From: Actinomycetota bacterium | GTDB taxonomy: Bacteria > Actinomycetota > Actinomycetes > S36-B12 > UBA5976 | DNA: 34,757 nt | Reading direction: 5' to 3' | Assembly: GCA_009918005.1 (NCBI GenBank) | Contig: RGDC01000006.1 | Location: 1 to 34,757, forward strand | In this document: positions 30,118-33,905 of the stretch, piece by piece | Numbering within the stretch: the first letter of the stretch is position 1 | Layout of the letters: each line of letters begins with the position of its first letter | The notes under the pieces: model-generated | Told to the model about the DNA's origin: nothing | What the model saw: only the letters and a program-made list of their open reading frames with translations | Database searches by the model: none | Position numbers and translations under genes: made by a program

Positions 30118-30232
30118 ATCTCGACAGTTAGCTCAGGAATCACAAGCCTGATGCGACAAAAAACTCAATAGACAGGTAAGTTTGGAGTGCTGAGAAAGTT
30201 ACTTTTCTCGCAGGATTTGTATGGAGGTCGAA

Positions 30233-30553
30233 ATGACTTATGTGATCGCACTGCCTTGTGTGGACGTTAAAGATAAGGCTTGCATCGAAGAATGCCCAGT
30301 AGATTGCATCTACGAAGGCGATCGCATGATGTACATCCAGGCCGATGAATGCGTTGACTGTGGCGCATGTGAACCAGTTTGCCCAACAGAGGCTATCTAC
30401 TACGAAGATGATGTCCCAGAAAAGTGGGATAACTTCAAGGGAGTCAACACCGCATTTTTTGAAACCCTTGGCTCTCCAGGTGGCGCATCAAAAACTGGAA
30501 AGACCAGCAATGATCCAGAAGAAATCAAGTCACTTCCGACCCAGGTGAGTTAA
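30233..30553 (+). CDS. fdxA: 7Fe-8S ferredoxin FdxA
   Basis: The 106-residue protein starts at ATG 30233, set by GGAGG 5 nt upstream, while the track start at 30221 covers that site. The sequence matches actinobacterial seven-iron ferredoxins. Cluster cysteines lie in PCVDVKDKACIEECPVDC (Cys9, 17, 21, 25) and ECVDCGACEPVCP (Cys40, 43, 46, 50), followed by AIYYEDDVPEKW. It is a cytoplasmic low-potential electron carrier. The TAA stop directly abuts the CTG start of dapC in the same reading frame, and fdxA-dapC is a conserved pair (Rv1177-Rv1178). A small GAGAAA/TTTCTC hairpin lies in the 5' leader. Confidence 0.96.
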   Translation: MTYVIALPCVDVKDKACIEECPVDCIYEGDRMMYIQADECVDCGACEPVCPTEAIYYEDDVPEKWDNFKGVNTAFFETLGSPGGASKTGKTSNDPEEIKSLPTQVS

Positions 30554-31620
30554 CTGATTTCACCACTTGCAAACGGCTTACCAGATTTTCCTTGGGACCG
30601 GATTGCAGCAGCCGGCGAAGTTGCAAAAAAGCATCCAGATGGAATTATTGATCTGTCCATTGGGACACCGGTTGATGACACTCCAGAAGTTATTACTTCT
30701 GCGCTGGCCGCCGCCGCTAATGCACCTGGCTACCCAACTGCAGCTGGACTAATCGAACTCCGACAAGCATGGGTCTCTTGGGCTTCGCGCATCTTGTCGG
30801 CTGAATTAAACGTCGATCAAGTTGTGCCATCAATTGGATCTAAAGAAATTGTTGCTTGGCTCCCGGTTGTTTTTGGATTAAATGCCAGCAGTACAGTTGC
30901 CATTCCAGAACTTGCTTATCCAACGTATGCAGTTGGCGCATTGATGGCTCATGCAAAATACGTAACCTACAAACAAGCCTCTGATATTCCAGATAACGCT
31001 GACTTGATTTGGGTGAACTCCCCAAGCAATCCAACAGGGGAAGTTTTAACCGCAGATCAACTAAAAGAAATTGTTGCCCGCGGCCGGGAACTATCTGCAC
31101 CAGTTGTAAGCGATAGCCAATTTCAATTTTGGATCCACGAGTTTGCGGAACAGACTTCACTGGAATTTTGGCAGTCCACTCGTTGTCAAAGCGTTCAAAT
31201 CTTGCTGGCTATCGTTCTGGCGCTGTGCTAGGTGACACCAAATTGATTGCAGACATAGTCTCTCTGCGAAAGCACGCTGGAATGCTCGTCTCAACTCCGG
31301 TGCAGTTGGCGACGGTTGCAGCACTTGGCGATGACGCACACGTTGCAGCGCAAAAAGCGCGTTACGCCAAACGACGTGACGTACTTCACACCGCACTCAT
31401 TTCAGCCGGTTTCAAAATCGAACATTCTCAGGCAGGCCTATATCTGTGGGCAACAAATGGGACAGACTGCCTTGAAACGGTTAACTGGCTTGCCAGCAAG
31501 GGTATTTTGGCAGCTCCGGGAGATTTCTACGGGCCCGCAGGTCAGAATCACGTGCGTTTGGCGCTAACTGCGACTGACGAGCGGATTGCTAGCGCAGTTT
31601 CGCGGTTAACGGTTAATTAA
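30554..31620 (+). pseudogene. dapC: Succinyldiaminopimelate transaminase, frameshifted by an internal deletion
   Basis: The N-terminal part is in the frame of 30554-31114, with LPDFPWDRIAAA, GTPVDDTPEV, GSKEIVAWLPVVFGL, ELAYPTYAVGA, NSPSNPTGEVL and VVSD. The C-terminal part is one frame away, from about 31117, with PISILDPRVCGTDFTG, the PLP-lysine motif HSLSKRSNLAGYR and LYLWATNG. Family members read VVSDECYLGLGWDAEPVS at the junction, and here D and P are separated by only 2 nt. About 31 nt are missing, including the Tyr that contacts PLP. The likely start is CTG 30554, with AGGTGAG 4 nt before it and no ATG, GTG or TTG nearby. Both halves are well conserved, so the lesion is recent or a data error. 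Confidence 0.85.
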
Positions 31621-32984: not shown

Positions 32985-33905
32985 TTAGTTTTTGTGCAGG
33001 GCTTCGTTTAGCCCACCCCAAGTACCTTCTCTAGTTACGGCCTCGAGTGCGCCTGAAACTGAATTGCGGCGGAATAGCAAACCATTAGCTCCTGACAACT
33101 CCTTGGCTTTAACAACGGTGTTGTCTGGCAGCGTGATTTTTGATCCGCCGGTTATGTAGCAGCCAGCTTCAACGACGCAACTGTCACCAAGTGAAATGCC
33201 AACTCCGGCATTAGCTCCAACCAGGCAATTCTCACCGATCGTGATTACTTCCTTGCCGCCACCCGAGAGTGTTCCCATAATGCTGGCGCCACCACCGATA
33301 TCAGAGCCATTGCCGACTACAACTCCAGCTGAGATACGTCCTTCAACCATGCTGGCTCCCAAAGTTCCGGCATTGAAGTTAACAAAACCTTCATGCATGA
33401 CAGTTGTGCCAGCTGCGAGGTGAGCACCCAATCGAACTCGATCAGCATCGGCAATTCGCACCCCGCTTGGAACCACGTAGTCCAGCATTCGCGGAAACTT
33501 ATCTAGACCGAAAACGTTCAGGTAGATGCCCTTGGCTCGGGCTTTGATTGCCACTTCAGAAACGTTTTCAACGGCAACCGGACCAAGGGAAGTCCAGGCG
33601 ACATTTGTAAGCAAGCCAAATAACCCATCCAGATTGATAGTTCTCGGTGCCATCAAGCGGTGGGAAAGTAAATGTAAGCGCAAGTACGCATCCGCAGCAT
33701 CTGTAGGCGCAGCACTCAAATCTGAAGTGGTTGTAATTACCTCAACGCGAACTCCACGCAGGGCATCAGTATCTATTCCACGTTCTAGTCCGGTAACGTG
33801 CGCTGGATTATCGCCAAGCACAGGCTGTGGATACCAAACATCAAGCAGCACATCAGCCGAGTAAGTGGCTAATCCGGTTGCAGTTGCGATCTGACTCTGG
33901 CTCAT
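32985..33905 (-). CDS. dapD: 2,3,4,5-tetrahydropyridine-2,6-dicarboxylate N-succinyltransferase
   Basis: The 306-residue enzyme succinylates tetrahydrodipicolinate in lysine/diaminopimelate synthesis. It has the actinobacterial DapD form: an N-terminal alpha/beta region, then a left-handed beta-helix of hexapeptide repeats ([69 protein letters not shown]). Unlike most genes here, it has a Shine-Dalgarno (AAGGA, 5 nt before ATG). It is divergent from dapE. DapC acts on its product. Confidence 0.95.

Follow-up and report, generated by a model that had tools for sequence, protein, structure and literature searches.

Results

The dapC locus and its neighbourhood

The window, i.e., the whole 34,757-nt stretch of DNA that was analysed, is contig C164 of the draft genome G000 (1.52 Mb in 218 contigs, 84% complete, 4.5% contamination), the relatives of which are freshwater actinobacterial metagenome-assembled genomes, several of them titled Candidatus Nanopelagicales. 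Positions 30554-31620 hold dapC, an actinobacterial-type succinyldiaminopimelate transaminase gene, which is split across two reading frames of the forward strand: the upstream part (30554..31114; 187 codons in frame 2) corresponds to positions 1-181 of the NCBIfam profile TIGR03539 (DapC_actino) and closes with ...PVVSD, and the downstream part (31117..31620; 167 codons and a stop in frame 1) picks up at 31117 with PISILDPRVCGTD, corresponds to profile positions 193-357 and contains the PLP lysine motif. Left unshifted, frame 2 reads through to a TAG at 31229-31231. Downstream of dapC there is a citrate-synthase-like gene, followed on the opposite strand by an apparently intact dapD of the actinobacterial type (tetrahydrodipicolinate N-succinyltransferase; 32985..33905, reverse strand), which scores above the cut-off of TIGR03535.

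Directly upstream, sharing its strand and frame with dapC, lies a ferredoxin gene (30221..30553; called fdxA-like from its translated sequence rather than from a profile search), and dapC opens immediately behind its in-frame TAA. No in-frame ATG, GTG or TTG was found upstream of the conserved LPDFPWD of dapC (30545-30580). Since there is no such standard start, and since TAACTGATTTCACCACTTGCA in this stretch is identical in six relatives (the CTG at 30554 being likewise invariant in six), the sequence suggests that dapC may be initiated at a CTG or ATT codon, or else be translated by stop-codon read-through out of the ferredoxin gene.

A 31-nt gap in an otherwise conserved gene

Both parts of the window’s dapC are collinear with the actinobacterial DapC family, from which the gene differs by its broken frame and by 11 absent profile positions, with 2 nt found between the pieces. 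The initial annotation, made without any database searches, had proposed just such a loss of 31 nt and about 11 residues, and the comparison of the locus in sister genomes that it called for bears this out: blastn against all nine closest relatives (L003-L011, i.e., G009, G012, G014, G013, G021, G015, G018, G005 and G006) gives a clean 31-nt gap after 31113/31114, placing the junction at 31113..31117, where frame 2 passes into frame 1; in some of the more distant relatives, the gap is split or displaced in the alignment. It had also been considered that close relatives might naturally lack the segment in one frame, which is not so, as all nine carry the 31 nt and dapC in the relatives is one open frame of ~365 aa. 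The gene is kept in place in 18/18 of the same-genus relatives having a DapC match, and the break is not a chance feature. Taken singly, the two pieces score 223.4 and 258.7 bits, each below the family cut-off of 355.65 bits, with full-length matches in intact relatives reaching about 520-527 bits.

The DxxY tyrosine contacts PLP in fold-type-I aminotransferases. When the motif is aligned to the solved fold-type-I aminotransferase 2x5d, the D is seen to be retained and the tyrosine to fall within the 31-nt gap, so the initial annotation was right about the loss of this active-site residue. It was also right that the rest of the gene looks unchanged: the SxSK motif of the PLP lysine and the following arginine are intact in frame 1 (SLSKRSNLAGYR, aligned to 2x5d via a relative).

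Both halves of dapC are under strong purifying selection, with dN/dS against six relatives of 0.03-0.07, as between intact relatives. No relaxed selection was thus seen on the remnants, which speaks against a pseudogene of long standing; a very recent loss would look alike.

Two side observations concern dapC in other assemblies. One TAA lies within the matched dapC stretch of the relative G022 (L013/L041, contig C81). Three public metagenome-assembled genomes titled Bifidobacterium breve (L039, L051 and L052) have a dapC grouping with freshwater Nanopelagicales-type genomes, and these titles look wrong.

Block deletions across the draft genome

The draft was set against ~1.5 Mb of the sister genome G015, in a comparison taking in 629 kb, or ~40%, of the draft (559 kb in the deletion count). 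Within these 559 kb, and with a permissive X-drop, there are 16 isolated deletions of 30-93 nt inside G015 open reading frames, roughly one in-gene block deletion per 35 kb, as opposed to a single insertion of at least 20 nt within an open reading frame. The control comparison of G013 with G015 (295 kb; 78.9% mean identity, against 78.8% for the draft) yielded no in-ORF deletions of this kind where ~8.4 would be expected at the draft’s rate (Poisson P about 2e-4). The draft hence shows a recurrent, one-sided class of defect that its matched control lacks. Six of the 16 deletions shift the frame and ten are in frame, a share exceeding the third expected under random joins (P = 0.017), which leaves room for a natural origin of some.

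The genes hit include rplA (L1; site L150:575, contig C11), rplR (L18; L201:7519, C153), tgt (L208:18368, C36), sdhB (L212:4350, C80) and a FabG-like reductase of the SDR type (L204:2711, C186), the block deletions at these five sites measuring 40-53 nt, as well as a FabD-like gene; menC and a class III aminotransferase join them under a less strict filter. The rplA and rplR deletions are at the gene start, that of tgt is at the DSGGFQ motif and that of the reductase at the SYTASK motif. One copy each of the L1 and L18 genes was found in the draft, and true deletions in all of the affected genes within one lineage are not credible. A one-by-one check against several relatives covered dapC, tgt, sdhB and the reductase out of the 16: judging by flank spacing, no close relative covering the respective site (up to nine each) has any of the latter three deletions, the dapC deletion is absent from all covered relatives, and those of tgt and dapC were additionally confirmed against G013.

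Several intergenic deletions, two of which are gaps in G013 too, were set aside as natural, and so was one of 30 nt at L208:16384, in a gene of lysine-rich repeats, attributed to natural repeat variation. An apparent size ceiling of ~51 nt proved to be a BLAST X-drop effect that was gone at a higher setting. The loss of a fixed k-mer-sized piece was rejected, as no single k explains lengths spread from 30 to 93 nt. A 9-nt perfect inverted repeat (31111-31119/31206-31214), rarer than in 99% of random positions, has one arm exactly over the dapC junction; a comparable repeat occurs at just 1/20 other deletions (an intergenic site that is not draft-specific), so the repeat is no general cause, and its presence at dapC is probably due to chance.

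Change of the nearest relative at the junctions

Over ~7 kb, the largest switch of affinity between G009 and G013 occurs at 31090, 24 nt from the dapC junction. From ~30700 to 31110, most 100-nt steps of dapC show 92-94% identity to G013/G021, and for the downstream part of the gene and most of the surrounding region the nearest relative is G009. The synonymous distances agree, dS being 0.50 to G013 and 1.01 to G009 upstream, and 1.74 and 0.68, respectively, downstream. At tgt, the left flank is nearest to G009 (87% vs 82% for G013) and the right flank to G013/G021 (90% vs 84% for G009). At both dapC and tgt, the nearest relative thus changes at the junction; at the sdhB and reductase junctions, the switch is weak.

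The lysine pathway in the draft and its relatives

A search of the assembly for a second transaminase, as had been proposed, found no second DapC (dapC occurs once) and several class III ArgD-type aminotransferases, none of which passes the TIGR00707 cut-off. In the draft, lysA, present in all relatives searched, was not found, probably owing to incompleteness.

In the sister genus g6, no DapC_actino match exceeds about 92 bits in six of seven genomes (G027, G033, G039, G040, G041 and G042), nor does any meso-DAP dehydrogenase pass the cut-off there; all six keep dapD and lysA, with a dapA match in all but G027; the seventh, G038, has a divergent DapC_actino match (344 aa, 273 bits). With a good match wanting in 6/7 genomes, the transamination step would apparently be performed by some other enzyme in this family. 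Within the window’s own genus, G001 and G017 have lysA and dapA, and no dapC or dapD match; as the two latter genes adjoin, both genomes may share a missing region or may truly have lost the succinylase branch.

Discussion

The initial annotation had left it at either a very recent inactivation or an assembly or consensus error, and it is the error side that the one-sided deletions and the haplotype switch favour. Because similar small, one-sided deletions are seen in many conserved genes of the draft, the 31-nt deletion in dapC is most likely a metagenome assembly mistake (a probability of roughly 0.86), and dapC is most likely intact in the living organism. On the simplest reading, the assembler or a gap-closing step put together two pieces that did not overlap and that probably came from different co-occurring strains, whereby the short stretch between them would have been dropped; we infer such a chimeric join from the dapC and tgt junctions falling at switches of the nearest relative, with which it fits. 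The errors most often discussed as giving rise to false pseudogenes are single-base or stop errors. False pseudogenes arising from assembly errors have been documented (PMC11017572), and the present case resembles them in that a conserved gene is broken in one draft alone and in that the same draft has many further broken conserved genes, while the errors in G000 are blocks of ~30-90 nt. Chimeric contigs from strain mixtures are likewise a documented concern (PMC5607848).

It is unlikely, by comparison, that the lineage has undergone a real and very recent deletion, with an ArgD- or SerC-type aminotransferase performing the succinyl-DAP transamination. The junction is clean, the draft encodes ArgD-type class III enzymes, the activity comes from argD and serC in E. 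coli (PMC5764234), and most of the g6 genomes keep dapA and/or dapD together with lysA despite having no good DapC_actino match, all of which such a loss would accommodate. It would, however, account neither for the switch of haplotype nor for like deletions throughout the draft, the affected genes being ones that could not all be dispensed with, and it sits poorly with the intact adjoining dapD, the remnants showing no relaxed selection and the retention of the gene in place by every same-genus relative that has a DapC match. Of the suggestion that ArgD covers the step, then, what stands is that ArgD-type enzymes are present, which makes a back-up possible, even though none is above the family cut-off; it is not needed for explaining the data. 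Decidedly improbable is also the variant in which the deletion is real and fixed and an otherwise normal DAP pathway runs without DapC by means of another transaminase, in parallel to g6.

The patch of ~410 nt with G013-like affinity could come from ordinary recombination, a point against the artefact. That co-existing strains recombined in vivo, homologously or illegitimately, so that in some cells this patch (~30700-31110) was brought in and 31 nt were lost at its right edge, would agree with the mosaic affinity and the switch peak at 31090; a deletion at the edge is unusual for homologous recombination, though, and the surplus of deletions in the rest of the draft would stay unexplained, so we consider this very improbable. 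Expression of the split gene by frameshifting or other recoding hardly merits credence at all, as, despite the collinearity of both parts with DapC and the protein-level selection on them, the absent residues, the DxxY tyrosine included, are encoded nowhere in dapC, which means, as the initial annotation had argued, that simple recoding could not restore a normal active site, and no relative uses a split form.

One-sided deletions relative to a matched control, together with a change of the nearest relative at the junction, offer a way of recognizing such errors that is free of reads. Draft G000 holds a class of block deletions that mimics gene loss, and any claims of gene loss or lysine auxotrophy made from this draft would be unsafe.
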